Shown piece after piece: positions 8,675 to 64,000 of a stretch of 64,000 nt of DNA. Source of the stretch: Nipponacmea schrenckii (taxonomy: Eukaryota > Mollusca > Gastropoda > Lottiidae); the NCBI GenBank assembly GCA_030562195.1, contig JAUJPP010000001.1:13260472-13324471 (forward strand), in the 5' to 3' direction. Each line of letters begins with the position of its first letter. Positions within the stretch are counted from its first letter, which is position 1. The position numbers and the translations under genes are program-made. The notes below the pieces were generated by a model, which saw only the letters and a program-made list of their open reading frames with translations, did no database searches and was not told the origin of the DNA.

Positions 8675-11600
8675 TCAATGAACATTAAGCCATGGTAATT
8701 TTCTCATCTGGCTGCCTTGAGGCCAAGCATATCTAGACTGATACTCAGAGGAGGTAGGGGGAAGAATTTCAGATTTGCCCAGAGTGCGGCCATCAACTAC
8801 AAAATTTGGTCGCGGGTTTATCACAAAATGACTGGTTGGCAAATTGAGATTGGGTGGAATATATTCATCAGAATACAACGTAGTTCCTGGAAAGATGACA
8901 TTGATTCCTGCTCTCTCGGCAGCAGATTTAGTATTGGTCAATGAAGCAGTCAATAGTTGCTGAGACCTCATCTCCTTAGTTCTGGTCTGATCCATGGCAT
9001 TCAGACTGTTGATAGTCTTGATATCATTCATTGTTTGTGTGAGGTATGGTTGTGATGTATCACCCAGGTTCATCATGGAAGTGGCTCTAGGATATAAACT
9101 ATCAATGGTTCTATAGCCTGAAAAGCATAAAAATTACATTGCAATTTTTCACTTAACAATAATGATTGAACTGTTATTTCATTTAACTTCATAAGAATCA
9201 ATGATTTGATCTTTTCTGGTTATATTTAATTGGCAATTAGTAATTGATTTATATTCAACTGTTCACTTCAAATGAATTCAAACTTTTTTCTGAGACAGGC
9301 AAATTTAATTGGCGTTTATGACATCTTCAAAATGTCAAGCTAAAATTAACTTTGTACTATACTTTGACTACAATAATCACCTGTCATGCATTATGGAAGA
9401 TTGTAAATGGAGCAATTTGATTGAATGTATGCTATCAAGTTAATACAAAGATGTATTAATTGCAACCTTTACTTCAAGGGCTCTGATTGCCTGCATTTGC
9501 TGGCAAAATTACTGCATTTGCGATACAAGAATATTGACTATTTCATTTGAAGGATAAGTATGACATTTAACATTTTGAAGATGCATGTGACACTCAAATA
9601 TGTAAAGGGGGTGATCAAACTAGTATTGTTGGTGGCAGCCTATTAGCAAAACATTTCAAACATAAGAATGCAAAATCTTTCATTGGTCAAAAGATCAGAC
9701 CATACCAAATTCTGCAGTTAATAAATGAGAACCCTGCATAATGGGAAATATAATGGCACTATAATTACTGTACATCCTATAAAACCTTTCCAGATTATAA
9801 AAATAAATCAGCTTACCTTTGTTAACTTTCTCTGGTGGTTTGAAATAACCATATTGTATTTGGGAACCCATGGCACCATGTCTTTTAGTACGTAGGTCAG
9901 CTAGTGGAGTACCAATAGCTAAATAAACAAAAACACAGATTTGGGCATAAGTTGCATGTACATCATTAACGTAATTTGTTACCAGCTAGTAAAGTTTGAT
10001 TGTAGTCAATATCTGCAACATATTTTTTCTGCAATCAAATAAACTATGTACAAAGCAGTAAAAGAGCTGAAATTGAACTCTTGTTAGCTAAAGACAATCA
10101 TTATAAGTACAGACTTATATACACTTATTTCTGATTATTTATCAGTCAACAATTAAGGTAAACTTACACTATTTGATTATTATCAGCAACAATAAGGTAA
10201 GACATAACACTATTTTGATTATTATCAGCAACAATAAGTAAGACATAACACTATTTTGATTATTATCAGCAACAATAAGGTAAGACATAACACTATTTTG
10301 ATTATTATCAGCAACAATAAGATAAGACATAACACTATTTTGATTATTATCAGCAACAATAAGATAAGACATAACACTATTTTGATTATTATCAGCAACA
10401 ATAAGATAAGACATAACACTATTTTGATTATTATCAGCAACAATAAGATAAGACATAACACTATTTTGATTATTATCAGCAACAATAAGGTAAGACATAA
10501 CACTATTTTGATTATTATCAGCAACAATAAGATAAGACATAACACTATTTTGATTATTATCAGCAACAATAAGATAAGACATAACACTATTTTGATTGTG
10601 ATCAGCAACAATAAGATAAGACATAACACTATTTTGATTTTTTCAGCAACAATAAGATAAGACATAACACTATTTTGATTGTGATCAGCAACAATAAGAT
10701 AAGACATAACACTATTTTGATTGTGATCAGCAACAATAAGATAAGATATAACACTATTTTGATTGTGATCAGCAACAATAAGATAAGACATAACACTATT
10801 TTGATTGTGATCAGCAACAATAAGATAAGACATACATATTTTAAATCATCAAAATGTGTTATAAGGAGGTATAAAAAGATTTGGGTTTTGTTAATCCCAC
10901 TAAAACTGTAATCTATATCCTGGTTATCATAATCTGCTAAGTACATTAGGTTTAATCCTGTTTACAATTTAGGAACTGTGATCTATTACAACATTCATAC
11001 AAACAATCTGTAATACTGTACAATCCAATAAAACATGTATTAGAAGAAATATGATAAAGTCTTCCCTACATAATTATGTTATCAAAGAGAAGAAATAATA
11101 TACTATATGCACCAATTTCCAACTGTCAATTTAACATAATAGCTTTTAGCACAAAAGTCAAGCTTTATGTCTTCCAAAATAACCAGAAGCGTTAACAAGG
11201 ATGATTTAGATGTAACAGAATCCTTGGTTATTCAGGCCTGTGAATAATTCAGAACCAAAATACAGAGGTCTTCATTATAGGTAGAACATCAGTTGAAATG
11301 AAAGTCTAATAGTATCCGGACTTACAAGTTTTAGCTCTTTCAAGTCTCATTGTTTCTTGAGTTTGAGTACGAGTTGGTTGTGGTACTCTCATTTTATTAT
11401 TTCTATAGTAGGTATATTTATCAGTCACTCCAATATGGTCACTAAACTGATCTATTCTACTGGCAGCGGTTGCAGCAAAAGGATCTATGTTCTGAAACAG
11501 ATGTGAGGAAGGTGAAGGTTAAATCCACATCACAGGTATTTGCAATTACAGTCGAGCTATATGTGTACAATAATTTGGGCTTCAATATGAAAGATAGCCT

Positions 11601-32762: not shown

Positions 32763-33244
32763 TTTGAGAACAAAACAGCTAATTGGAGCGAAATTGAGTT
32801 TGATTTGACAAAATCAGTTGAAGAGCAACATCAGGTGTGTGGGAGGATATTTAGTTTCTCATTAGCTATGTCATTACACTTTTAAAATCCAACAAAAGTT
32901 AAGAAGGTTGTCAATTCAAGGGTTTTAAAAACTTTTTTAGTTGGAGCTGTTACCCATATTATTATGATTACATGGTATACTTGGTTGTTCACAAGAAAAT
33001 CTATGATGCATTTAAGTTATGACCACCTGAATGGGCTTTTTTTTTTAAATTGCAGGAGAATTTAACATTGAATACTTAATCTGAAAAATGAACAAGAAAA
33101 ATTATCTGGTTTTGATAATAAGGGTTATTTGAGTAAATGACAATTTTTTTTCATTAATTTTGTAGAGACAAATTGTTTAGCAAAATCCTAGTCAAATGCC
33201 AACCTTCTGCATATGACCTTGACTTTGATCTCAATTCAGGACAA
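32763..33244 (+). repeat. 482-bp direct repeat, left copy
   Basis: Runs from TTTGAGAACAAAACAGC to CTCAATTCAGGACAA and is nearly identical to 36,964-37,446. The only difference noticed is the length of the T/A run near 33,037. Its sequence looks like ordinary AT-rich host DNA. It borders the truncated end of the reverse transcriptase frame. Confidence 0.95.
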
Positions 33245-34271
33245 AATTGAGAAGACCCAAAAGAGATTGGAGCTCACGTAAAGTAATTTTTTTATGGGAT
33301 AGTGTGGAGAAGAGAGCATTACGAACTTTAACTACTTTTTCATCTGGTAGTCTCAACTCCATACTATCAGAATCCACCTCTATTCCGTAAATAGTAAGTT
33401 TCGATGTCGGAAAAACAGTTTTAGAATGTTTTATCGGAATGCCTAAAGAATCACATAACAACAAAAAAGAATTAAGAGATGACAGACACATGGAAGATTC
33501 AGCTGGACCTGCAAAAAAGAAATCATCAATCATATGACTGAGAGAAGCATGAAATTTCGTTTGCATAATCCAATGCAGGGCCGTGCTAAATCTTTCAAAT
33601 GTCTGACAACTCATGCTTAGGCCCATCGGAAGACAGCGATCAGCAAAATACCAATCAATGCCATCCGCAGGAACTGTAAAACCTAATAAACAATAATCAG
33701 TGGGATGAATGGGTAATAATCTGTAAGCATCCTTAATATCAGCTTTAGCAAGAAGTGCACCTTTGCCCTGAGTTTTAACAATCGAGACAACATGATCAAT
33801 TGTTTCATATTGCACAGAAGTGAAAGTTTCTGGTATAAAGGCATTAATAGAAGCGGAATGTGGAAAAGACAAATCGTGAATCAAGCGATAAGAACCAGTT
33901 TCGTGTTTGGGTATTACACCAAGAGGTGAACAATGTAGATTTGGAAATGGAGGTTCACGAAAAGGACCCAGAACACGACCATGGGATAACTCATGATTCA
34001 CTTTTTGCAACAGTATAGCATGATTTTCCACGCACGATCGATGATTTCGAGATAAACAAAAAGTCCGACTTCCTGTATAAGGAATTTTGAAACCCTGAGA
34101 AAATCCATCAAATAAAAAATGTTTTTCAGTTACATTGTATCCTGACAAAAACGCGAATAATCTATTTGCCCTTACTGGGGTTGGAAGCTGACTTAGTTGG
34201 TGCACTAGGCAAACGAAAAGAACTATTAGGGGCAGAATTATCATTAGCAGTTCTAGAAGATGTATTTGCAT
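33231..34271 (-). CDS. Reverse transcriptase, 3'-truncated
   Basis: The frame gives about 346 residues counted from an ATG at 34,271, though the element's real RT entry point may differ because the frame overlaps the end of gag. Visible motifs: SYRLIHDLSFP (about 127-137), AKADIKDAYRLLPIHP with the first catalytic Asp (175-190), DRCLPMGLSMSCQTFE (211-226), HMIDDFFFAG with the Asp pair at 249-250 (246-255), LTIYGIEVDS (292-301) and RELQSLLGLLNF (332-343). All core catalytic residues are present. The last three residues and the stop come from the flanking 482-bp repeat, so the protein is cut before RNase H and cannot support a full cycle alone. Confidence 0.9.
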   Translation of the reverse strand: MQIHLLELLMIILPLIVLFVCLVHQLSQLPTPVRANRLFAFLSGYNVTEKHFLFDGFSQGFKIPYTGSRTFCLSRNHRSCVENHAILLQKVNHELSHGRVLGPFREPPFPNLHCSPLGVIPKHETGSYRLIHDLSFPHSASINAFIPETFTSVQYETIDHVVSIVKTQGKGALLAKADIKDAYRLLPIHPTDYCLLGFTVPADGIDWYFADRCLPMGLSMSCQTFERFSTALHWIMQTKFHASLSHMIDDFFFAGPAESSMCLSSLNSFLLLCDSLGIPIKHSKTVFPTSKLTIYGIEVDSDSMELRLPDEKVVKVRNALFSTLSHKKITLRELQSLLGLLNFVLN

Positions 34272-35371
34272 CCAATGGTGCTTGCCCGGACTTGCCCGGA
34301 CTTGCTGCGTTTAGCGTAACAATTCATCACCGCATGATTATTGAATCCACACCTGGTACACTCATGTGCAAATTTGCACTGAGTAAAGTCGCAACCTTGC
34401 GGAGAATTAAATGCAAAACATTTATTCTTATTTGCATTGCGGTTACGAGAAAATCCACTAGCCGGTTTATTATTAGATTTAGCCAACTTAGCAGATTGAT
34501 ACATGGTGACTGCTTGTAGCCAAATTTCAGGATGCATATGGTGCCAAGGTAATTTTTTGGTTTGACGCAAACGCCTGAATTGTGTATCGTAAAATGTAAA
34601 AGCATTATTCCCATAACCCCGTGACAAATCGGTTATCAAGTTTGCATACACTAACAATTGACTAACGTCCTGTGGAAATTTCATCACATAAATATCCAAA
34701 AAAATATCAAAGGCTTTACGCCACAAGTCTAACGACAATTGTTTAAGTTTGGGGGCAGTTGATATCTTGAATAGTACTGGGTCGTTTTCCGACTCAACAA
34801 CATTAACCGATAACCGATCTGGCACGAAGTCAGGTAACAACTGACTAAAATCAATGAATTTGTGTGACCAAATATCCTGCCGAAGTTTATCTGAAACATG
34901 GCTAGATAATGAAACTCCATTTTCTGGAGAATTAGGAAAATTGAACATAGAGGTAGTACCTAATGGAAAAAGTTCTGATGGATCCAAACTAATCACATTT
35001 TGAGAATTGGAATGTATTGGTAGACCTGAACTGGTGGTAGTGGATGTCAATGGAACAGTAGTGGACAATGGAACAGTACTGGTGGTAGTGGATGTCAATG
35101 AAACATTAAAACTACTTGATGAAGAACCTGATGTAGTAACAGTGACATCTATAGGTATTGGAACGGCTGAAACAGGAACGGCTGAAGGTATTGGAACGGC
35201 TGAAACAGGAACGGCTGACATGGGCATAACTAAACCCTTGTCCTTCATCTTCTGGACTAAAATGTCTGTCAGGCGATCTTCCGCCGTAGTAGGTATAATT
35301 TGACGAGAAGATTCTTCAGAAACCTCATCCTCAATTTCATCTGGACTCGGAGACCGTGTTCTTTTGGACAT
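34253..35371 (-). CDS. Gag-like nucleic-acid-binding protein, frame-shifted C-terminus
   Basis: Starts at the ATG at 35,371 (MSKRTRSPSPDEIEDE) and gives about 372 residues. The first third is acidic, then Ser/Thr/Val/Pro-rich with repeated AVPVSAVPIP. The middle has a helical domain (KLKQLSLDLWRKAFDIFLDI region). The C-terminus has a CCCH finger, C-x8-C-x4-C-x3-H at about 318-336, followed directly by a CCHC knuckle, C-x2-C-x4-H-x4-C at about 338-351, both expected to bind element RNA. A tandem duplication of 10 bp (AAGTCCGGGC type) at about 34,284-34,307 lies just before the current stop and changes frame; the unshifted frame stays open for about 40 more codons and overlaps the RT frame. The start codon is preceded by a splice-acceptor-like TTATTTTCCAG. 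Confidence 0.85.
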   Translation of the reverse strand: MSKRTRSPSPDEIEDEVSEESSRQIIPTTAEDRLTDILVQKMKDKGLVMPMSAVPVSAVPIPSAVPVSAVPIPIDVTVTTSGSSSSSFNVSLTSTTTSTVPLSTTVPLTSTTTSSGLPIHSNSQNVISLDPSELFPLGTTSMFNFPNSPENGVSLSSHVSDKLRQDIWSHKFIDFSQLLPDFVPDRLSVNVVESENDPVLFKISTAPKLKQLSLDLWRKAFDIFLDIYVMKFPQDVSQLLVYANLITDLSRGYGNNAFTFYDTQFRRLRQTKKLPWHHMHPEIWLQAVTMYQSAKLAKSNNKPASGFSRNRNANKNKCFAFNSPQGCDFTQCKFAHECTRCGFNNHAVMNCYAKRSKSGQVRASTIGCKYIF

Positions 35372-35894
35372 TCTGGAAAATAATAAATAAAAAACTTTTC
35401 CATCTACATGTACATAAAAATATAGGGGTAAATCTATATATAGATTACAAACAAAATAATTCCAACAAATTGAGGTCTGTATAAGACTACCAAAACATAC
35501 ATTGGCAACACTCAAGAAATAAGCTCAATAGTCAATAGTAAAGTCCAAGACAAGGCCTACTATACGCCATACAAAGAAAAATCTATTCCCACATTACATA
35601 ACGCTACAAACCACGGAATATGGCTAAAACCGAACTAGAATGTTTAACTACCTGAAGCACTGAAGCAGATATTATGACAATGTCTATATTTACTGACAAA
35701 TGAGAATGAAACAAAACTAAAACAATACGAATTTAACTGGCTTTGAAAATACCGAATTTTGAAGTGCGCATGTCAATGAAACCGGAAAATGTGCTTGTCG
35801 CGACAAATGGGACCAACACCAAATCGGACAACAAATATTACGGTCAACAATAGACCGTCCAAAAGAAAAAAGGAGCGCAACCGAGTGCACACCA

Positions 35895-36683
35895 CTATAG
35901 AAAAATAAAAATAGTACTCCACCCAAGGAATACCCAACAATACATAAATACGAAACGCAAAAAAGCAATCCACCCAGGGATAACCACAAATAAATAAATA
36001 TCAAAACATACCTTTGATAAACAAAACCATCGAATGTGGCGTAGTATGGAATCTCGTACACTTCGTAAAAAACGAGGAATGCCCTCTCGAGGAGACAAAT
36101 GAACACCATCAGAAGATAGAACGTTTATGTGAGGTGAATCTAAACCATATCCCCGATGCCGCCATTGAGAAATGCACGGTTCTAACTCACACAATTGAAA
36201 AATGCGAGAATTCAACTCAATCACTCGGTCATTATAGGTTGGATGAGATACAATATTACGAGGGAATAGTTCGGAGATGATAACACATTTAACACCAGGA
36301 AATGCTAAAACATAATTAGCAAACGCCAAAATATTATTGGCCAACATATGTGGGGTGACAGACATATCACATAAATCGTTTGAACCCAAATGTAAAAACA
36401 CGATATCCATATTTGTAAACCGAAAATCATGTGGACGAAGTAGACGGTTATGTGGGTCAGATCGTACCAAAAGACCTCCATAACCAAACAGTTTTATTGA
36501 ACAAAGACGAGGATCGAGACCCAAGTTGAACAAATCAACATTGGCATTAGCAAAAGAAGATAAACGTTTAATATGGGATGACCCAAAGACGCAAACATTA
36601 ATTGGAGTTTCAACGGGAACAAAGGTTAACCACTTATTTTTTACACTGAAAAGCGGAACCTTACTTCGCGGAGCCACCGCCAT
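35895..36683 (-). CDS. SGNH/GDSL-type hydrolase of the retroelement
   Basis: The first ATG in good context is at 36,683 (MAVAPRSKVPL). SGNH blocks are visible: VCVFGSSH (block I, nucleophile Ser within GSSH, about 29-36), a Gly in LFGYGG (block II, about 65-70), HLGSND (block III, about 94-99) and SSDGVHLSP (block V with the Asp/His pair, about 185-193). Such domains are esterases or acyl hydrolases; in retroelements the substrate is unknown. The hydrolase fold ends near residue 212. A perfect donor (CAAAG|GTATGT after 36,012) lies about 224 codons in, while the unspliced frame runs on to 35,895 through hydrophobic, low-quality translation; the true 3' end is thus probably at the donor. Confidence 0.85.
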   Translation of the reverse strand: MAVAPRSKVPLFSVKNKWLTFVPVETPINVCVFGSSHIKRLSSFANANVDLFNLGLDPRLCSIKLFGYGGLLVRSDPHNRLLRPHDFRFTNMDIVFLHLGSNDLCDMSVTPHMLANNILAFANYVLAFPGVKCVIISELFPRNIVSHPTYNDRVIELNSRIFQLCELEPCISQWRHRGYGLDSPHINVLSSDGVHLSPREGIPRFLRSVRDSILRHIRWFCLSKVCFDIYLFVVIPGWIAFLRFVFMYCWVFLGWSTIFIFL

Positions 36684-36963
36684 TACCAAAAATCATACCG
36701 TTCCAGAATCAAATGCACATAATTACACAACAATCATCAATAGTGAGATGACAAGGCTATTACATAACAAAGAACAGTCAAACAAACAAAACACAGCAAC
36801 ATACACCACCCTAGCACGAAAAAACCAAAACAAATAATTAGTGAAACTAAGAGCATCCTAAAAAGAGTGGCCTGCTGTGCCCTTATCTGGAACGAATGAA
36901 ACCACGTGATTAATCACGCGGGAACATTCGGTCCACAAAATTTATTATTTCCAATAATATTTA

Positions 36964-48774: not shown

Positions 48775-51700
48775 ATGAAGAGTTATATTATTAGTGTTAT
48801 TGTTGTTATAACTGTGATAGGATGTGTATTATCAGAAGATATTTTATCCAGAACAGAACGTGGTGCCAGACGCCAAAACAGACGAGCAGGTTTGTACACA
48901 TTATATCATCACTCTTATTATACCATAAATCTTTCTTTTTATAGAATCAAGAGAGATGAGACTGGTTTTTTGCTGAAGAGAAATTTCTTGTAAATTATTA
49001 TTGTAATTTTTGAAATAACAGTTGCTGATATATAAAAATTTGACAAAATTTTGTGAAAACAGTTATACATGTATAAATGATTTTCGACATTGTTTTAAAT
49101 CTTTTTCATTATTATCAAAAGGAGTATATGCTTGTAACTTTTCTGAAAATGATCCAATTTTCCATATTTTTCACTTTGGTATAAAATAAACAAAATATGC
49201 TATTCAAATCTATGCACACTTCCCCTTTTAATTGGGTTGGATTATCTATCAGTAACTACAAAAACTTTTACCAAATATAAAACACATGGCACATGTTATA
49301 CTAATTTGTTTATATTTGCAGGATGTAAATACAATAAGAATCCTAAAGTCAGTCCATGTGACACTGTGACTAACACCTATAATAAAACCTTTACCCTAAA
49401 GAAAGGTCGGGCAGATTGTAATTCTACTATGATCATATCTAAGCCTTGTAAAGATTCTGCAGGTAATTTTTGCTTATTGGTATTTTTTGCATGAAGGAGT
49501 ATTTCGACTTGATACTTTTTAGGAAAAAATATTGTGACATCCATAATATACACTAGTAACTTGAGGGTCATTATTTAAGCATTTCCCTGTATTTTTGTGT
49601 TGACAATGAACCAAATTACACAAACAACTAGCTTTGAAACACTTTGTTGGCACTTGTTTGTTTGGTGCCGTCTGTTGCAATTCTGTTCTCAATAAAGGAG
49701 TATCTATTTGCCTTTTTTTTGATTGAACGTCTGGTTGATTTCATGACTATGATCCTGAATGAATTAGGGCTTCATATACACTTTGTTTCAAGTAATATAA
49801 CATAATACAGTGAAACCCCCCCCCCCCCCAAACCGCATACTTTATAAACTGGCATCCCCTGTAAACCGGCATATTTGAATTCTCTAATTGGTCTCTCTAA
49901 ACTAGCATCTGATTTCGTATTAATTAACGTTAATCCTTTGATGGCATGAAAGTTGAATTCGACAGGTGCTAATTAATCACTAATCCAATTAATTACGCTT
50001 TAATGTATGACCACTGCAAAGGTAAACCGGCAACCTCTCCAAACTAGCATTTATCACGGGCCCGACAGCCTGCTGGTACAGAGGAGTTTCACTTTATGCA
50101 GTATAGGCCTTAATCTTCAATATGGAACTATATTTTTAGGAGGATGTAAATACAAAAATGATGGTCCATGGTCAGATTGTGATCCTGTCACCAAGATGAA
50201 GACTAAAACTAAAATATTAAAAGATGGCAGTGGACCTAGTTGTCCTAAAACTATGAAAAAAACTAAACCTTGCTCTAATGATAGACGAAAAGGAAGGAAA
50301 AGTAAACGTAAGTGTTTTTGTTAATTGTCCATTGGTTAATTCAGTTTTCTTATTTACAAGCCATCATGACAAATTTGAATACTTTGGTTATCAATCAAAA
50401 AAATTTAAATCTTTTCTACTTGTGGCATTATTTATTTAAATTAGAAAAATTTATGTAGGTATTTGTAGTCAACTTGCTTTCTTCAAATTCTGCACACATA
50501 TTTTTGGTCTACTTATTGCCATAGTCAAAATTCCTGTTCAGATCTGAATGCTTTTCATGGAATATGCTATTTGGTACTCAAATGGCTATGAAGGATATAC
50601 CGTCAATTCTGGAAACTTCCTTTACTTTCAAGCATAGATCCACAAATTCTTTAAGGGAGTAGTTAGTAGGGACTACTGGTACCAAAGTATCAGTTCCCCC
50701 TTTACACTTCCTCAAGATATAGTTTTGAATTGTTTTTATGCTTATCATTGCAGCATGTAAATACACCAAAGGAGATTGGAGCGAATGTGACACTACTACC
50801 AACATGAGAAAAAGAATTCTGACGTTAAAGAAAGGAGATCGTGACGTCTGCGAAAGCAAGAAAACAGTGTTAAAGAAGTGCCGAAAAGGTAACATGGACG
50901 CCACTAACAACTAGAAAACCCTGTTTCATAGCTTCAACTCTTTATACTAACCAATGTAATTTTCTTGCATATTTATCTGTGAGTGTGTATCAGGATTGTG
51001 ATGCATGGCATGACTTCAATATTATCAAAAATCAAATTAGAGCCTTGAGTTCTAATGTGAATGAAAAAATCAAGTAGTAGGCCTATGCCAGGTGGTAAAT
51101 TTAGACAGTACAGTGGCATGAGCATGTGTTTTCAATTTCAAACCTTTGAGAGATCTTGAAATACTTTAAAGGAATTATTGGGTAGCAAAATTTTTGATGT
51201 TGATGATTGAAATCTTTTGGAGTATATTTTCAACTTGAAATATATTAAATATTGTTGCTAAAGCAGAGCTGACTAAACTATTTTCATGCAATGCTTCACT
51301 TCCCTAGTACATTCAAAGGACATGTACTTAATCTTTTGTACTTAGTGTTATGTACTAAATTACTAACTTACTGGAAAACTTGTATGTAACTTACTTACTA
51401 TTTGAACTTATTCTTATCTAACTTCATTACTTTAGAACTTGATCTGATAAATGTATGTCAAGTCACTTTTGAACTTATGCTTACTTACCAAGAGCTTTAA
51501 ATTTGATTTATTACTTCATTACATTTGAACTTACTTACTTTTGAACTTAATTCATGCTTAGTGTGCATCTAAGAAACCTATTCACATTGCATTATTATTA
51601 ATCACATTGTTTGAATATGTCTTTCTACTGTGTATTTAGGAAATATAATTTGTACAAAGAAAATTTGTATTCTCTTATTGTGCCCAAAGCATGTGCTAGA

Positions 51701-54700
51701 TGAATCCTTGCTTTAAGATCACATGGTATTATTATTGCTGTGTTTATACTAACTATTTAATCAGAGCAGGCTTGCAGTTATCCTGTCATCCCCCTACCCA
51801 ACCCTTCTACTAGCCCATTTAACATAATAGAGTACATGTACATTATTGCATTCTGTATAACCGTATGTACCTTCATTAAAAATTCGTCAATGATTGTCTA
51901 GCATCCTTTAATATTCATACACATCTATGTACAAATAAAATGTTAACAAACGCAAACTCTACCTTGGTATCAAGTATGTAATGTCTGTATTACGAAGTAT
52001 CTGTGAAATTCTTTAAAAGTTTAGAAAATGCGAGATTCAAAACAGTACTGATAGTCAAAGAAGGACTTTCTCTTGATAGACAAAATAAAGTTTTGTAATA
52101 TAAATTGAAGAATGACATATAAATGGAAGAATGACATACTCATTCAAAAATGAGTGTGAAAATTGACCATTGTTAAGACAAAATTCAAAAGTGACAATAT
52201 GTTCTTTTGTTTTTATATTAGTCATTGCATGGTCATTTTTAATGTCATTGCTATTTTGAAACTTATATCCCAGATCATAAAATAATTATCTGTAATTTGA
52301 TTTACCAATGAAGGTTGGCAGACAGGAACCTCATTATGTTGTCTACCATCTAAAATCTAATAAAGCTATTTAGTGCATGTTATTATATATTCATATATTA
52401 TTCATTAACTTCTACTAATTGCCCTTTAATAAAGTAATTGTATGAGTAATTGTTTTCTTAATTAAGTAATTACTATATAATACGTAATATGTTTTATTTT
52501 GTCCTACTAAAACCCAAGCTTCCCACTGTGTATGGTGAAATTTCAACAATATAATGTGATATGAACTGCTTTTTCTCATTTCCATACTTTTTGTATTGTC
52601 TATTGTGGATTTTTGTGGCTTCAACTATATTCACGGTGCCAGTTCTTAAATTTTCAGAACATTTTTATTGATGTTTCAATATCTGAAATGTAGTTCATTG
52701 TGGTTTTTTTATAATAAAATTCTTTTAGAAAAAGTCAACCACTAGCTATCCTTAAAGTTTTGCCCCAAAGCATGTAAGAGATTCTTGGTTATGGTAAAAG
52801 CATAATGCATACTATCATATTGCTGAATGTTTAAGCAAGCATTCTCAACAGCACGATATCATAGCATCCAAATCCAGTGTGGGAAGACTGAAGTCTGTTT
52901 CAGACAATACATGTTCCTGACGCATTGTTCTCTAAGATCTATATTATCAAGGATATTATGGTAGCTTAATTCAAAGGTATTGCAAAGAGGTTTTCTAAAT
53001 CTTTTATGTGGGACACTGTTTATCAGGGACACTGATCGCATCGATTTGCATCATTCCAATTTTGAATCAGACGTTTGTGGTTCCTGCAATTCCTATAATT
53101 AATTGGTGGTGCCACTCATCACAAAAGATGCTTGTTTCACATAAGGCCCTTGATTATTAGTGATTTAGTTTTAGTGGAATTGCAGAAACCACAGAAGTTT
53201 TAAAATTGTAATGATGTAAATTGATGCTATCCAGTGTCCCCAGTACACATACTAATTTAGAAAAAACTCTTACAATCCCAATGAAATTCTATCATCTACC
53301 AAACTGTTATTCGAATATTGGGATTGTTTATGAACCATTTATAGCATACCTGCAATTATATTTAAAATAATGACATGAAATAATTTAACAGGCCTGCAAA
53401 ATTTGACATATAATTGTATTTAAAAAAATTATATTTAAGAAATGAATTTTCCAAGTTGGATGACATTAGATATAGTGGAAATTTAAAGATAAAATGAGTT
53501 TATTAATTTCGTGATCCAAGTACATGTAGGTACTGATTTTGAAATGGTCAAATGCATTTAAATATTGATTTGGAAATTAATTTTACCAACTATTAAAGCA
53601 ACTATTTTTATGTTATACCATTCAAACTCTCTGTATTTTCATAACCATATTATAGTAACATGTTATTAAGATGGCTATATATTCTAAAATATTTTTGACC
53701 AACTTGGCTTACAGTTTTCAATTTCTGGGAATTGCAACTTAAGTTGATTCAGTCTATCAAATTGCAGTATTAAAGTTATCTTGAAATACATAGCTTCAAT
53801 CAAAAACCTAGATTTTTTAGGGAATTTTTTCTCAAGAAAATCTTTACACCTTTTCTAGCAAAACGTCCCTGAATATATCTAAAAGTTCAAGCTAAGAAAT
53901 TGTACCTGATAATGAAAATATTGCACACTGCTCCTACTTAGCATTACTGAAATGTAACGGAATTGATTTCATCAAGCTTGTTGAAGCAGTCTCTCCACAT
54001 TATAGAATTGCAAGACTTTGATGTACTAAGTAGCTATCATTTGAATTTTGTGAATTTCTGGAATACCTCATCAGAGGATTATACATTGTTAAAACTAAGA
54101 ATCACTAATTTTCTATAGGCTTAGTTCTAGCTAACATTTTAAAAGATGTCTCATTCAACTGCATTCATGCAAGGATATTTGACATTTGAAGACTTCTAAA
54201 TTTCATATTTCATGCTATTTCCCTAATTGGTTCTCTTACTCAAATCCTGCAGTAGACCTTAATTATTCGATTCATCATCAAACTGATTCTAGAATTTTCT
54301 CAAGAAATTAATTCCACTTGTCTGGAAGGCTTAAACTGTTCCTGCTGAAACCAGATGAACATGTTCAGTATATATAGCCAATGACAACTTGCCAGATATA
54401 TAAACCTTTAAAGTCAATTTGTGGGCAAGAGGAGTGATTATTTTCTAGAACTTTTAAAGGGTGACTCCATTTTTTTAAAAATTTCAATATTTTTTGTTTA
54501 TATGGACTGAAAGACTGAATAATGTTAAAAATGGATGTACAAAATTGGAATGCTGAATCAATTTTTCGTGTTGTGAATATTCATGATTGATTCAAACGAT
54601 AACTTGATTTTCAATTTTGCACCATTGTCAATTCTGCAAATTCCAGACCCATCACTGTTAGGTCTAGTCAATGATTTGTATACAGTGACATGATAAAGTT

Positions 54701-57700
54701 TTCATATGAATTAGGAAGGGTGCAAATAGAACTTATAAGTGGTAGTAGTAAATTACTACTAGTAATGTGGTACACATACTATAGACACCATACAAACCTA
54801 ATGAGACTGATGCCTTTAACAATTTTAGTGTAATCATTTTGGTTTTACTTTAACAATGACGTATTTCATATTATTTACCTCAGATATTCATCATATACCA
54901 TTAGCTGAAATTATTTTAACAGGCTATGTGTGACTGGTTAATCAAGATGAATAGACCCTGATCTTTCATTGGCTATGTCTGCTTCACTAAGATTTTATTT
55001 TTCAGACTTTCCAGTCTAAAATGAAATTAGATTAATCCCTTGATACACCAAATTTCGCTTCCGTTTATCAAATTTATTGATTACTGAGAAATTTTAACCA
55101 GCAAGCCGAGACTTTTTTCAATCTATTTATGAAAGTTTTTTATGAAATTTTACGGAAACACTTAGCTTGAGACATGACTGTAGGAAATAGAGTTTGGTAG
55201 AAATGAATAAAATTAGAGGCAGTATTCTTCTGTTAGCTATTATTGACGTGCTCTGATGTGTGAGAGTGAATTTATTGGCTAGAGTAGAACATTTCCAATA
55301 GTAGAAAAAGTTTCTGCAATTTGACACGTTGATGGAAATTGGTAGGACTATTAGATTACCCATGATTCTTTAGTACTTGTTGATTTCATTGGTATATTGT
55401 ACTATGAACTTCATGTTATAGTACCATCTCATGAAATGTGGTCTTACCAATAATTTGTGGTCATTCATCAGCTATATAGAATGTAAGAAAATTAATAAAA
55501 CTCATACTATTGAATAGTACTTTTAGATGAGGTATTGATGAAGGTGTGATATTCACTAAAAGCTTTTTGTCAGTTGATGAAAAATTACCCTCTGTAGTTC
55601 GTTACTCGGAACTTTATTGAAAGATAAATATTAATCCGATTCTTGGTGGATATTTGCACTTTTAATGAATGAGACAATTTTTGTTTTGTACAATAAAGAA
55701 AATATAAGTAATCCGTTTCATTCAGGCAGTATTCATATAAGTAATCTGTTTCATTCAGGCAGTATTCTCATGTAAAAATATTGTAGGGAAAAGTAGAGGT
55801 GGGGGGGGGGTGTGGGTGTCTGAAGATAATGATCAAGTATCCTGAGAGGGGTAAGAAAAAGAAAAACCCTGTTTTAGTAAGTATAAAATCTACTTAGACT
55901 AGAAAACAAAACAATAGAATTAGGATTAGTTTTTAAACGCAAGTTTATTTTAATACAAGACAATGCTAAAACTTAAAAATTTACTTTGGTACATCCAAGA
56001 AACCTGCAGCAAAGTTAAATATTTGATACACATTAATGTTGCCTATATTTCTATTATGTATAACTTATTGATATAAACAGCTGCAATAATTAGTTTTAAT
56101 CATGTTTCAATTACAATAACTCTTTAAATAATTATAAACTAACAGCTGAATAAAGACACATCATTTATAACTTTACATTAAAAATAATGAAGTGTAACAA
56201 ATGAGAAAAGTCACAATAATAACTGAATCATATCCTGTAGAAAAAAAATGAAGGCATTTTGTTATTTTCCTTCTCTTGATTGGGCCACTGAAGACAGCAA
56301 CTGTATATAAATACATGTACACATATATATTTTCTAGTCTTTATCCTCTGTCACACTAAAGTTACAACAAAATGAATGTGTTGTAGCGAAATCAAGTAAT
56401 CTGAGAAAATTAATGCTCTTCATGTTGTTTGAAACCATTCTTGCCCTGTTTATCTGTGAAACTTTTCTTGAAAGAGGTTGAAAAAAAAAAATAAAGATTT
56501 CTCTTTTTCGTGCACTATAAATGATATTGTTTAAGTATAAGAATTCCAGGAAAAACAAGGAAAAAAATTCTTTTAAGTGTGTTTCCTTTAACTTAGTTAT
56601 TTTGTTGAACAACAAACTGGAAAAGAAAATTAATTTAAGGCAATTGGAGGAGAAAATTAATGGCTTTTCTATGTTCTGTGGAAAAACTTGAATTTGTCTT
56701 TTTCCCAGCATCAAATGATGTACGAAATAGTTTTATAGAATATTAAATGCCTTGGGTAATCAAGTTTCATATTTCGTGTAATTTACTTTCTGTGAAATAG
56801 AATTCTGTAAGATTCCCTCCATACATGAAGAAGCTATTTGAGAGAAAATGTTTAATTTTTGATAACCTAAAGCTTAAGGCTCTTTCAATTTATATAGGCT
56901 ATTCAAGTAGTTATATTCTATATGTTTGGCAATTACAATGGCATAATGTGATGGTTTCTGTAATACAAGTATGGTGTAAATTTGAGTTCAGAATATATAA
57001 ATTTATATAAGGAATGTCAAAATGTATGGAATATGAAAAGATGTTAAATACAGGCTTAGACCTACATCTTAACCATCTTACAAATCCTTTGGAGGTCTTT
57101 CATAATTTTACTTACTTAAAAGGAATCATCTTAGTTTTCAAAAATTGCAGTAAAGTGAAAATAATTAAAATTTCTAGGTGTGCGGAAAATAAGTTATAAT
57201 TACAATGTATAAAAGGAATGCAGTAATCAGTTTGAAAACACACAAAAAGTTGAAATAATATTTAATCTAGTTCATCATTGAGAAACAAAACCCCAGTAAA
57301 CATTGCAAATACTGCATTAATCATTGAAAGAAAAAGTTAACATAAAAAAGCATCAGGAGTAATTGTTGAAAGCAGAACCACATTTATCATGAAGAAATAA
57401 TCAGCAGCAATCATATAGAGAAGACAATCAGTTATCAAGAAGAATGGATGAACAGTTTTCACAAGAAAGGATCAACAATACACATTTAGAGAAGAGCCAC
57501 ATTTATCAAAGGATCAGTAATGATAATAATCATTGAAAGAAGAACTGCAGTTTTCATGAAGAGAGGATCAGCAGTAATCATTCATAAAGAACTACAGTTA
57601 GCATTAAGAAAGCATCAGCAGTAATCATTGAATCATTGAGAGAAGAACCACAATTATCATAGAAAGCATCAGTTATGTAATCATTGAATCATTGAGAGAA

Positions 57701-60700
57701 GAACCACAGTTAGCATTATGAAAGCATCAGCAGTAATCATTGAATCATTGAGAGAAGAACCACAATTATCATAGAAAGTATCAGTTATGTAATCATTGAA
57801 TCATTGAGAGAAGAACCACAGTTAGCATTATGAAAGCATCAGCAGTAATCATTGAATCATTCAGAGAAGAACCACGATTATCATACAAAGCATCAGTTAT
57901 GTATTCATTGAATCATTGATAGAAGAACCACAGTTAGCATTAAGAAAGCATCAGCAGTAATCATTGAATCATTGAGAGAAGAACCACAATTATCATAGAA
58001 AGCATCCGTTATGTAATCATTGAGAGAAGAACCACAGTTATCATGAAGAAAGCAACAGCAGTAATCAAGGAGAGAAGAACTACAGAGGTATCACAGAGAA
58101 AGCAACAGCAGTAATCAAGGAGAGAATAATGAACTGTATTAATCATTGAGAAAAGAACTACAGTTTAGAAGGAAAGACAATGAGAAAAGAACTGAAATAA
58201 TCATTAAAATAAGATCTGATTTAATCATTTGGAAAAGAAATGCAGTTTCATTATATTTTAATCATAAGGAAGGAAGTAATCATGAAGAATTGACTTGAGG
58301 TACTCATGAAGATAGGACTTAAAGTAATCATGGAGGAAAGAACTGAAGTAATCATAAACATATGAAATGATCATGAAGAAAAGACTTGAGTAATCACGAA
58401 GAAATGATATGAAGTAATCACTAAAAAGAGACTTGTACTTATCAAGAAAATATCTTGAAGTATCATTGAAAAAATAATAAAGCAATCAGAATAAACATTG
58501 AGAAAGAATTAAGTAATTAAAAAAAGAAAGTAAACATTGAGATACATGGATTTTAATCACTGTAGAATATAAGACAATCTGCAGTCATATGATATCAAAT
58601 AAAATTGATTAAAATGGCCTACAATAAATCTTCAAATTGTATATTTTTATTGTTCGGCATTTTATTCTTATTTGAACATGAAATATGGGAATAAAATAAC
58701 TCATTAATAGAAATTAATTTCTGATCTTAGACTTAAAAAGTTTGACCTTTGTCTATGAAGGAAGAAATATGGATTATTAAGTCTCTTGGCGTCATGGAAT
58801 CTAGCTTGTTACCGATGTTATGGGCATTTGATATGGTAGAGTAACACATTCAATTATCTGGCCACTATTTATGTACATTATTGATCTGGTAGCATTTCTG
58901 ATTGGTTGTCTAACAGCAGGTCTGTGACTCTTCCTTGATTTTCATTAATCTTTCTAATGCTTTTCACCGTCTAATTTTGAAGGCTAAGGAACAGACTCTG
59001 TTTGTCTATTGTTACTTAAACGTAGTACAATTCATAAGCGCAAAGAAAAACGCTCCGATTTTTAGTTAAAAAACTTTATCTGTAATCCATTTTTTATGTT
59101 CGCGAATCCTGTACAGATCTTAAAATAACAAGAATGATGTCAGATGACAATGATGATGATAGTATTCCTTTAAATTTTACTTCCTTACAATCATCACATA
59201 TATTGGAGTTGGTATGCCAGATACTGCGGATCGCAGTATCAATTTATGTTTGCAGCACAACTTTTGGCTATGAAATCTGAAGCTTGTGTATCTGCAACTG
59301 CAGAAAACAGATACCAATGTATAGAGGTTGCCGGTTTACAGAGGTTAAATTTAGTTAAGCAATAGAGGAAAAATATAGGGACCGTAGAATTGTGCCGATT
59401 TGAACAGGATTCCGGTACACAACTTTTGGCTTTGAAATCTGAAGCTTGTGTATCTACAACTGCAGAAAACATACAAAATTTCCAGGAATTTAAGGTGCCA
59501 ATAACATTTTCTTTGTAGATATTATTTGTATGCGAAATACCTACAAAAGGCAACTTTGATAATGGTTCAACTTCAAATTTCCATTATGAAAGTGAGCTTT
59601 ATCATCTGGTATTTTACAATCTTAGACAACCCTTTTAATAACTGCATTTAAAAATAAAAAATTTGATACTAGACCTAGATTGAGAAATCCTGGGGCCTGA
59701 TTCTTGAGCTTAAATAAGTTTAAATCCAAACTATGTAATTGATACAAAAAACATCTGATTGGACATTCAAACAATATGTAAAATAAATCTTATTGATTGA
59801 CCAATCAGATGATTGCCACACTTAAATCAAACTAGCTTTTTGAGAATAGGGCCCTTTCGCCATGACAAATAAATTCTCATGATTGCTGCAATAATCCTTT
59901 CTTTACTAATAATACTAATAACTTTTGTACTTCACTTTGCATTATCTCAGCTTATCTCATTATCTCTCATGTTAAGGATCTTTTAAGGAAAAATTTAAAG
60001 ATGTAGTTCTTAACTTCGGCACTGCCTATTGAAACTGTATATTTTGACAGTGTATTTGCCAGATTTAACTGAAAATTTGGGAAAATACATTTGGAAACTG
60101 ACAATGCCATCATGGACAAGTAAAGCAAGTAAAGATATTACTTTTTTGAGTCATAAACTTTAACAATTAAGCTATTAAGAAAATTGATTTTACACTAGAG
60201 TTTTTTAATTGAAATTGTCATGTGTTCATGGAAATAATGTATAACTTAGTATGTTTATTGACAGAATGTAAATATGAGAAAGGAAACTGGGGAGCCTGTG
60301 ATTCTACCACTAATAACATGTCCAGAACACTGACTTTAAAGAAAGGAGATCCTGCCAACTGTCAGACCACCAAGACTATCACCAAACCTTGTAGACGATC
60401 TGCATTGAGAGGGTTATGTAAGTCTTATTGTATTAATTGATCTGATGATTTTCTGTCTACTTCAGACACCAAAGGGTATAAAATAGTGGATGAAAAAATA
60501 AGACATGGGAACACTGAGTTCTGGGTTTGATTTTGGCATTAGTTAAACAGTCCCTATTTTCCCCTTTTTAATGGTCATGGATTGATAGCATATGTAATGG
60601 AACATTTACATGTTAAAGGTTAATTGAAATCGAACAAAAGTAGTGTAGTAGTTGAAACCGTGGAGTATAGATAAATTTCATTACATAGCATTACCTATAC

Positions 60701-63700
60701 CCATATCAATATGTGACTTATTTCATATAAAAAAGGATTAATGTATTTTGCAGCTTGCAAGTACTCATTTGGTGATTGGGGAACCTGTAATCCTAGAACC
60801 AACACCATGACAAGAACACTTACTCTCAAAGCTGGAAATGTTAATATTTGTCCCAAATCTAAAACTTTTAGCAGAAAATGCAAAAGCCGTAAGTATATCA
60901 TATTTTACAATTTTACAGCATAATGATAAAATTTCACTGGTGAATTTTGACTTTGTGATCTGAATTCACGGATTGCTGAAAATGTATCTTTTACCAAAAC
61001 CATAAAGCATCAGACTTAGCAAGTGATGTTTCTTTTTGTGTCTTTTTGTCTAGAGGCTTCTTCATCAACATCATCATTTATAATATTTTGTTGAATGTAA
61101 GTTTATAATATTTTGTAGCATGGGATATTAGTTTATGATATGTTATAGGATGTAAGTTTATGATATTTTGTAGGATAGGATGTAAGCTTATGATATTTTG
61201 TAGGATAGGATGAAAGTTAATGATATTTTGTAGGATAGGATGTAAGTTTATGATATTTTGTAGGATACGATGTAAGCTTATGATATTTTGTAGGATAGGA
61301 TGAAAGTTAATGATATTTTGTAGGATAGGATGTAAGTTTATGATATTTTGTAGGATGGGATGTAAGTTTATTATATTTTGTAGGATAGGCTGTAAGTTTA
61401 TGATAATTTGTATGATATGATGTACGTTTAAGATATTTTGTAGGATCCGATGTAAGTTTATGATATTTCATAGGATAGCATGTAAGTTTATGATATTTTG
61501 TAGGATATGATGTAAGTTTATGATATTTTGTAGGATAGGATGTAACTTTATGATATTTTGTAGGATAGGATGTAAGTTTATGATGTATTGTAGGATAGGA
61601 TGTAAGTTTATGATATTTTGTAGGATAGGATGTAAGTTTATGATATTTTGTAGGATAGGATGTAACTTTATGATATTCTGTAGGATAATTTGCAGGATGT
61701 AAGTTTATGATATTTTGTAGGATAGGATGCAAGTTTATGATATTTTGTAGGATAGGATGTAACTTTATGATATTCTGTAGGATATTTTGCAGGATGTAAG
61801 TTTATGATATTTTATAGGATAGTATGTAAGTTTATGATATTTATAGGATGTAACTTTATGATATTCTGTAGGATATTTTGCAGGATGTAAGTTTATGATA
61901 TTTTGTAGGATAGGATGCAAGTTTATGATATTTTGTAGGATGGGATGTAAGTTTATGATATTTTGTAGGATAGGATGTAAGTTTATGATATTTTGTAGGA
62001 TAGGATGTAAGTTTATGATATTTTGTAGGATAGGATGTAAGTTTATGCTATTTTGTAGGATAGGATGTAAGTTTATGATATTTTGTAGGATAGGATGTAA
62101 GTTATGATATTTTGTAGGATAGCATGTAAGTTTATGATATTTTGTATGATATGATGTAAGTTTATGATATTTTATAGGATACGATGTCAGTTTATGATAT
62201 TTTGTAGGATAGGATGTAAGTTTATGATATTTTGTAGGATATGATGTAACTTTATGATATTTTGTAGGATAGTATGTAAGTTTATGATATTTTGTAGGAT
62301 GGGATGCAAGTTTATATTTTGTAGGATACGATGTAAGTTTATGATATTTTGTAAGATAGATGTAAGTTTATGATATTTGTAGGATAGCATGTAAGTTTAT
62401 GATATTTTGTAGGATAGGATGCAAGTTTATGATATTTTGTAGGATACGATGTAAGTTTATGATATTTTGTAGGATACGATGTCAGTTTATAATATTTTAT
62501 AGGATAGGATGTAAGTTTATGATATTTTATAGGATAGGATGTAACTTTATGATATTTTTTAGGATAGGATGTAACTTTATATTTTGTAGGATAGGATGTA
62601 ACTTTATGATATTCTGTAGGCTATTTTGCAGGATGTAACTTTATGATATTTTGTAGGATAGGATGCAAGTTTATGATATTTTGTAGGATAACATGTAAGT
62701 TTATGATATTTTGTAGGATAGGAAGTAAGTTTATGATATCTTGATGGATAACATGTAAGTTTATGATATTTTGTAGGATGTAAGTTTATGAAAGGAGATT
62801 GGTCAGCCTGTGATAAATCAACAAAACTAATGACAAGAGTTGATACACTAGCTAATGGTAACAACGCTTTCTGTGAAAAATCCAGAACAATTACCAAAAA
62901 ATGTGTCAAGAATAAGAAAAGTAAGTAGTTAGTCCTGTTCAAAATATCAAGCTATAAGAACTTTGTCTCATACCTTGACAACTATAGGCAATTTTCTTTT
63001 AAAATTAGTATGTAATTTGATTTGATTGTACACTAGTGAAAAGATCCAATGAAAGGCAAAGATAGCAAGACAGTAACAAATCTCGCATTCATACTCTTTG
63101 AAATTTATTTCAGAATGTAAATATCAGTTAGGAGATTGGAGTGATTGTGTTGATAATTACCGAACTAGAAGTAAAATATTAGTCAAAGGAGATCCTAAAG
63201 TATGTACAGATACCACAGCATTAAAACGTTCTTGTATTCGTAATAATGGTCAAGGTTTGTATTAGTTTTTTTGATTCAAGAGTTTGGTTTCAGAACTGTT
63301 CTGTATTTGATGTAGGATTAGGTGTGGTGTATTTTGTGAATCAAGGGATTGTTAAGAGGTGTATCAAGGCCACTGATAGCATAAATTTGAACCATTCGTA
63401 TTTTCAATTGGTCAAATCTCGAATTATGCATGTAGCACATATTAAGTCCTTTGCATTTAGTGACATCCATCATATCTAAGATATTGTTAGAAAAGCTCTT
63501 TTCTATCCCTTTATCGCCTTTTTTTCAAAACTTGTCATAGAATCAGAAATTTAATGGGTTTCTCCTTGAATAGTTATCTCCCATTAATTGATAAGAAAAT
63601 GGAAATATACATTCATGCATGAGAGATTAGCTTAAGAGTATGAAACTATATAATAGTCTGTCAAGGGCTATGATTTGCTGTATTCACTGGCTTACATTCC

Positions 63701-63964
63701 AATCCAATCTATGCACTCTGTTATACAAGAAAGGTACATGTACCTCTTGCAGTCAAGGTATTAGGTAATAGTTGAGATCTATAAGTAATACATATTTAAT
63801 AATAAGATTTTGAACTTTTCATTATTTCAGAAAGATGTTTTTTCGGCCCATGGGGAGAATTTGGTTCCTGTATGAATGGAGTGATGACTAAAAATCGTAA
63901 AGTTTTACAAGGTGGAACTGCTTGTGAAAGAAAAGCTGTTATAACTAAAGGCTGCAGCAGTTGA
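48775..63964 (+). CDS. Secreted protein with eight tandem midkine/pleiotrophin C-type domains, 9 exons, 421 aa
   Basis: Coding exons: 48775-48889, 49322-49462, 50140-50307, 50754-50888, 60265-60417, 60754-60888, 62777-62920, 63114-63254, 63831-63964. All introns are GT..AG and phase 1; total 1266 nt. Exon 1 gives a signal peptide (hydrophobic residues 4-19, likely cleavage near VLS|ED) and a basic linker RTERGARRQNRR. Exons 2-9 each encode one domain of 44-56 residues, at about 39-85, 86-141, 142-186, 187-237, 238-282, 283-330, 331-377 and 378-421. Each has four Cys in the pattern CKY-x-(K)GDW-xxC(D)xxTxxxxRxxTLKKG-xxxxC-xxxxxxxKxC, which matches the heparin-binding C-terminal domain of midkine and pleiotrophin. 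Domain 1 lacks the Trp; domain 2 has a basic tail (RRKGRKSKR). Expected to be extracellular and to bind glycosaminoglycans. The acceptor of exon 3 is a TAG/GAG tandem. The 5' UTR begins at 48,772 or earlier. Confidence 0.9.
49808..50094. mobile_element. Pogo/Tigger-like MITE, 287 bp
   Basis: Terminal inverted repeats CAGTGAAAC (49,808) and GTTTCACTT (ending 50,094) are bounded by TA on both sides (49,806-49,807 and 50,095-50,096), the target duplication of the Tc1/mariner-pogo superfamily. The interior has phrases such as AAACCGGCAACCTCT typical of such elements. A run of 15 C (49,816-49,830) sits just inside the left end. The element ends 45 bp before the acceptor of exon 3 of the midkine-like gene. 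Confidence 0.75.
50889..52964. other. First part of the 9.4-kb intron 4 of the midkine-like gene
   Basis: No further domain exon (a TGTAAATA-type start followed by a W..C pattern) was seen. Between about 51,300 and 51,560 ACTTACTT/TTGAACTTA phrases recur loosely. Confidence 0.5.
52965..53290. mobile_element. Foldback (inverted-repeat) element of about 325 bp
   Basis: Left arm about 52,965-53,097 and right arm about 53,170-53,290 are diverged inverted copies. Pairs include TTTGCATCATTCCAATTTTG with the right-arm AAAATTGTAATGATGTAAA, GGGACACTG with CAGTGTCCCC, and GGAACCACAAACG-type with GAAACCACAG. The spacer is about 70 bp. A single diverged arm is found at 6,480-6,606. Confidence 0.65.
53291..57319. 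other. Middle of intron 4, non-coding
   Basis: No exon was found. A 37-bp duplication lies at 55,707-55,769 (TAAGTAATCCGTTTCATTC / TAAGTAATCTGTTTCATTC), and a run of 10 G at 55,801-55,810. Confidence 0.5.
57320..58120. repeat. Higher-order satellite: 112-bp unit made of two ~56-bp halves
   Basis: Units carry AATCATTGAATCATTGAGAG and AGAAGAACCACA. The two halves alternate, one with CAGTTAGCATTA and GCATCAGCAGTAATC, the other with CAATTATCATAGAAAGC and CAGTTATGTAATC, so the full period is 112 bp (for example 57,641 to 57,753). The regular part is about 57,600-58,010; outside it the repeat decays and merges into a purine-rich tract reaching about 58,500. Confidence 0.85.
58121..60264. other. 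End of intron 4, non-coding
   Basis: Contains a purine-rich repeat remnant to about 58,500, a 21-nt hairpin at 59,220-59,240 (arms GATACTGCG and CGCAGTATC), and a 54-bp direct duplication at 59,256-59,471. No exon was found. Confidence 0.5.
59256..59471. repeat. 54-bp direct duplication flanking a pogo-like fragment
   Basis: 59,256-59,309 and 59,418-59,471 differ at two positions. The 108 bp between them include GAGGTTGCCGGTTTACAGAG, which matches in reverse the interior of the pogo-like MITE at 49.8-50.1 kb. The duplication is far longer than the TA target site of that family, so it is a rearrangement or an internal part of a larger element. Confidence 0.7.
61075..62776 (+). repeat. 30-bp satellite derived from a splice acceptor, about 55-60 units
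   Basis: The unit is GATAGGATGTAAGTTTATGA followed by TATTTTGTAG, 30 bp. The array fills nearly the whole intron before exon 7 of the midkine-like gene, and its last TAG is that exon's acceptor. Each unit contains an acceptor-like TATTTTGTAG and, 8 nt later, a donor-like GTAAGT. Variant subunits with TTTTGCAG and TGTAACTTTATGATATTCTG recur together at about 61,667, 61,759, 61,848 and 62,596, indicating a local higher-order unit. Long open frames on both strands (for example repeated GCKFMIFCRI) result from the period of 30. Confidence 0.95.
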
Positions 63965-64000
63965 TTTGCTTGTATTATTTTAAATTTTGTGGTTATGATG

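Follow-up and report, generated by a model that had tools for sequence, protein, structure and literature searches.

The window analysed here, a 64,000-nt stretch of DNA from the gastropod Nipponacmea schrenckii, carries a growth-factor-like gene whose nine exons join into a single open frame of 421 amino acids. The predicted product matches the PF01091 profile in seven stretches at 259.2 bits, against a curated cut-off of 25.3, and by this profile match the gene is a member of the PTN/MK family, with its heparin-binding domains. The first 23 proteins found in a protein search share 38-51% identity with the 421-aa product, and the named ones among them come from what we take to be bivalves and gastropods. 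The boundary between intron 6 and exon 7 of this gene is the site of a tandem array, laid out as follows.

48775-63965, plus strand: PTN/MK-domain gene, 9 exons, 421 aa
60754-60888, plus strand: exon 6 of the PTN/MK gene, with donor GTAAGTAT
60889-62776, plus strand: intron 6, 1888 nt (205 nt without the units at 61077-62759)
61077-62784, plus strand: array of 57 junction-derived units, from TRF and a unit-by-unit parse
61077-61101, plus strand: left-most unit, 25-bp direct-junction form, with 3 differences from the true junction
61132-61156, plus strand: third unit, 25-bp direct-junction form
61667-61703, plus strand: 37-bp unit, with a CAG acceptor immediately before GATGTAAG (others at 61764, 61855 and 62603)
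62760-62784, plus strand: last unit, the true acceptor, made of 17 intron bases and the first 8 bases of the exon
62777-62920, plus strand: exon 7, encoding the domain CKFMKGDWSAC...

That exon 7 is used, and that its acceptor is GATATTTTGTAG/GATGTAAGTTTATGAAAGG (a slash marks a splice junction or its equivalent), is judged from the reading frame and from homology. A perfect GTAAGT, formed by the Cys-Lys codons, lies three bases past this acceptor (AG/GAT/GTAAGT, within 62777-62791), an arrangement that resembles recursive splice sites. The acceptor of exon 3, TTTTTAG/GAGGATG (50133-50142), is followed by a second AG three bases on, and the frame is kept whichever of the two is used.

The first-pass annotation had placed a tandem array directly before exon 7, and both methods bear this out: TRF reports 55.9 copies with a period of 30 and 86% matches at 61095-62779, and the parse resolves 57 units that run across the acceptor itself. 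Most units (44) are 30 bp long; the remainder comprise four of 37 bp, three of 25, three of 29, two of 27 and one of 24. Over 25 bp the true junction reads TTTATGATATTTTGTAG/GATGTAAG, and the exon bases at 62785-62791 (TTTATGA) extend the match, being the same as the start of other units. The common 30-bp unit reads GTAG-GATAG-GATGTAAG, with five extra bases, GATAG, between the acceptor and the copy of the exon. The earlier statement that the unit contains exactly the exon 7 junction therefore holds for 8 of the 57 units (the three 25-mers, which are units 1, 3 and 57, the single 24-mer and the four 37-mers) and fails for the common 30-bp form. The acceptor is TAG at the true site, whereas the four 37-bp units have CAG.

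Array units lie about 5% from the nearest unit form; the true junction shows 0 differences from its own form, and the unit that precedes it shows 5. The two left-most units start with TTTATAA, which is almost the same as the TTTATGA of the exon. Both ends of the array are short; if four short direct units were placed at random among the 57, this would occur with a probability of 0.004, a value computed post hoc. Because short forms stand at both ends, the array suggests that the 25-bp junction is the older form and that the 30-bp form spread between the array ends. Edge units may also be more divergent, but the signal is weak (P = 0.066 for five units on each side and 0.017 for the first three units). 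The array gave no sign of higher-order repeats: the distance between adjacent units was 4.23 versus 4.38 (s.d. 0.15) in shuffles, with the lowest value, 3.61, at lag 3, and no block of three or more units is repeated exactly, runs of the consensus aside. By eye, a triplet made of a GTAAC-unit, a 37-mer and a GCAAG-unit occurs three times.

In our interpretation, tandem duplication of the boundary between intron 6 and exon 7 gave rise to a minisatellite that spans this junction, and most splicing goes to the last acceptor; we assign this reading a probability of about 0.84. The anatomy of the array, its locus, the direction of copying and the consequences for the reading frame are the parts of this reading that the analysis shows.

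The array sets a long series of possible splice sites before exon 7. Between 61001 and 62777 there are 95 YAG sites, 50 of which, the true site included, pass a simple pyrimidine filter, with 45 failing. A set of 55-60 decoy acceptors had been proposed; 48 sites inside the array pass the filter, and 22 upstream decoys match the true acceptor base for base over -20..+3, another 15 being one base off. Because the letters are identical, scoring -20..+3 alone cannot separate those 22 from the true acceptor. The proposed 55-60 perfect GTAAGT decoy donors were an overestimate, as the array holds 34 (24 of them in the form GATGTAAGT), and the suggestion that a long exon lies behind the last acceptor alone does not hold to the letter, as pseudo-exons of 30n+8 nt can be delimited by decoy acceptors and donors.

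When exon 6 is joined in silico to any of the 49 filtered upstream decoys, a premature stop follows in every case, 32 of them having it as early as the first full codon, and with the pyrimidine filter removed all 94 YAG sites other than the true one also lead to a stop. These stops arise mainly because of the GATAG insert, as the frame past the acceptor reads GA/TAG. Pairing a decoy acceptor with a decoy GTAAG donor yields 295 pseudo-exons of 3-300 nt, of which 76 are a multiple of three in length and 2 are open. By these predicted frames, the decoys look like dead ends for the protein more than a source of variety, which speaks against useful micro-exons. The parse gives 12 substitutions in the four AG and GT columns versus 69 in the other 26; the splice-site columns thus vary about as often as the others, a pattern that fits drift.

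The possibility that RNA structure hides the decoys was considered and rejected: a stretch of five units is more stably folded than shuffles of its whole sequence (z = -3.37), yet in 103 of 300 cases five tandem copies of a shuffled unit match or exceed it. Upstream of the array, at 61028-61054, lies a pyrimidine-rich stretch ending in CTAG that is itself acceptor-like. Splicing to it leads to a stop 13 codons on, and exon 7 may have relied on this stretch as an acceptor until the array expanded.

The same decoys invite a functional alternative, namely that a share of transcripts is spliced to them, stopped and destroyed, such that array length sets the output of the gene. We regard such an acceptor sink as very unlikely. 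It can draw on the 22 perfect matches to the true acceptor, on the immediate stops past 32 of the 49 filtered decoys and on a junction VNTR in ABCA7 that affects splicing (PMC5954066), but the drift-like variation of the AG and GT columns runs counter to it, the amphioxus papers discussed below report undisturbed splicing in their excerpted text (PMC3087553, PMC3902484), and the excerpted ABCA7 text describes length as without effect on decay (PMC5954066). A more specific version, in which the 30-bp form spread since its GATAG stop destroys mis-spliced RNA at once, making the array a length-tunable sink, strikes us as a long shot.

The codons TGT AAG TTT ATG occur in exon 7 alone among the gene's eight domain exons, in agreement with the claim that TTT and ATG are specific to it. 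The accompanying claim of a shared start for the other exons was too broad: five of the seven other domain exons carry TGTAAATA, the exceptions being exon 6 with TGCAAGTA and exon 9 with TGTTTTTT.

Homologous proteins point to the age of the TTT codon. At position 3 of the counterpart of the exon 7 domain, 21 of 22 proteins have Phe and one has Trp; most other non-terminal domains of these proteins have Tyr there. To tag the corresponding domain, a loose text pattern was used (R.D, ahead of the last two domains), and by it one protein (P0012) has a second tagged domain. The count covers P0001-P0023 of 41 proteins, minus P0004, which is without the domain, and with P0024-P0041 left out. It includes five rows without an organism name (P0007, P0009, P0010, P0014 and P0016) and some that are not independent: a single gene yields both isoforms P0018 and P0023, and P0014 has sequence in common with P0021. 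The 17 rows with a name are presumably all from molluscs. Outside the count, a scallop protein (P0027) and all other tagged rows, other phyla included, have Tyr, and none of the octopus rows among the 41 proteins holds a tagged domain. Because Phe stands at position 3 in 21 of the 22 rows, the TTT codon is likely to predate the array, and the array to have taken it from the exon. The codon that follows is Met, the copied ATG, in none of the 22 corresponding domains, and its change in this lineage would therefore have come either ahead of the array or through exchange with it. That copying ran from the edge of exon 7 into the array is well supported.

This evidence also bears on a reading in which an unrelated minisatellite of intron 6 spread rightward, overwrote the first bases of the exon and supplied the present acceptor. 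The non-conserved ATG, together with the TAG at the true acceptor where the four 37-bp units keep CAG, makes some exchange from array to exon possible. Overwriting would, however, require an unrelated repeat to supply TGT AAG TTT in frame right past the acceptor, and these codons encode the CKF that is conserved through its Phe in nearly all counted rows. We judge it very unlikely.

Searches of the genome and the window locate the copies at this one place. A 90-nt array consensus gave at least 24 matches in the 399-Mb genome, all inside a single 1.7-kb stretch. A 23-nt junction pattern allowed up to 3 mismatches gave at least 13 sites, of which 8 lie in the array region and 5 are scattered, each at 3 mismatches. 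Because a reversed-pattern control likewise gave 13 sites, this second scan indicates only the absence of strong copies elsewhere; all counts from the genome DNA searches are lower bounds. Within the window, the true-acceptor 23-mer has 52 matching stretches on both strands at up to 3 mismatches, with none added at 4; 51 of these lie upstream in the array region and the remaining one is the true site. Chance is excluded as the source of this clustering. A dispersed genomic satellite that ends at exon 7 by coincidence, which the first-pass annotation had named as the finding that would overturn its proposal, can be set aside as having a negligible probability, as the same unit was not found at many unrelated loci and array matches in the 399-Mb search, counted as lower bounds, are confined to this locus. 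The proposal that the 5' edge of exon 7 seeded the array thus finds good support in the single locus, the conserved Phe and the direct-junction 25-mers at the array ends.

Under our preferred reading, tandem duplication of the junction, we infer a slippage route, an order of unit forms, the choice of acceptor and the decay of mis-spliced RNA as follows. The ancestral intron 6 would have been about 205 nt long and would have ended in ...TTTAT(A/G)ATATTTTG(C/T)AG/GATGTAAG-TTTATGA. The array-free length of 205 nt is close to that of one neighbour only, intron 7 (193 nt), the other six introns measuring 336-9376 nt. The near-repeat TTTATRA, 25 bp apart across the acceptor, would have allowed slippage that duplicated the 25-bp junction; an early copy would then have acquired GATAG, giving the 30-bp unit, which probably expanded through unequal exchange. 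The right-most unit, serving as acceptor and first codons, would stay under selection, and copies further to the left would drift as intron. Exon definition would favour the last acceptor, since exon 7 follows it and carries a donor of its own 144 nt further along, and exon 6 is probably spliced to it in this way and not through the letters of the acceptor. RNA with a premature stop decays, and occasional use of a decoy would probably end in that fate.

Other repeats in the window deserve mention. A 42-bp array at 10121-10842 (17 copies, 96% matches) has units that hold TTATTATCAG and in some cases also AAGGTAAGA, giving an alternation of acceptor-like with donor-like motifs along it. Apart from the exon 7 array, four repeat stretches of the window were inspected by eye, and neither in them nor in this 42-bp array could an exon edge be recognised. 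Intron 4 of the PTN/MK gene contains a degenerate repeat region (57527-58435) with 24-bp and 56/112-bp periods. On the minus strand, 33231-36689 holds long open reading frames, one reverse-transcriptase-like and one with a GSSHIKRL/HLGSNDL stretch, which together resemble a DIRS/Ngaro-type retroelement.

Amphioxus mirages, minisatellite-like duplications of intron/exon boundaries with repeated AG and GT signals, offer the closest comparison (PMC3087553, PMC3902484). The lancelet cases are Adh3, the globins BflGb6 and BflGb9, TnC and PGBD5, with Adh and TnC included by citation, and Adh3 units measure 10-72 bp (PMC3087553, PMC3902484). In BflGb6, the 3' end of the intron and the 5' part of exon 2 are repeated (6 or 3 units by haplotype, 150-160 bp), RT-PCR suggested undisturbed splicing, and junction duplication was proposed as a source of new introns (PMC3087553). 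Edge units of mirages escape homogenisation (PMC3087553, PMC3902484). As in mirages, the tandem unit described here crosses the exon/intron boundary, derives from the local junction and repeats its AG and GT signals (48 filtered acceptors in the array and 34 GTAAGT). Unlike the lancelet cases, it forms 57 units of 24-37 bp in a molluscan gene, and its 5-bp insert sets a stop past most decoys.

Human genes provide further parallels. CBS 844ins68 duplicates the intron 7/exon 8 junction, with the distal copy strongly preferred (the source writes "donor", but acceptor is meant), and the CBS VNTR c.1444_1467+7(16_21) consists, by its name, of 31-bp units that join exon bases to 7 intron bases (PMC2630376). 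The former is a single duplication and the latter is donor-side with 16-21 copies, whereas the array here is acceptor-side with 57 units. The ABCA7 intron 18 VNTR is built of 25-bp units, each opening with the two bases of the exon 18 donor; retention of one unit with a frameshift has been seen, and length polymorphism and a disease link are known (PMC5954066). That repeat, too, is donor-side, and its unit begins at the splice site. Among the matches listed in a literature search of partial coverage, none was a molluscan junction-spanning array, and a Conus gene-structure paper mentions, in its excerpted text, simple repeats only (PMC3862624).

The array is therefore a junction-spanning minisatellite of the mirage kind, a kind already known; what is unusual is its acceptor-side copy number, the stop past most decoys and the phylum. 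Junction-spanning minisatellites thereby appear to extend beyond the lancelet and human examples found. The locus also amounts to a natural experiment on how a 3' splice site is chosen, with 22 identical acceptors in a row before one exon: as these are the same over -20..+3, only exon context, distance or branch-point position can decide which site is used. Finally, the 25-, 30- and 37-bp unit forms make up a dated-looking series from which the growth of the array can be read.
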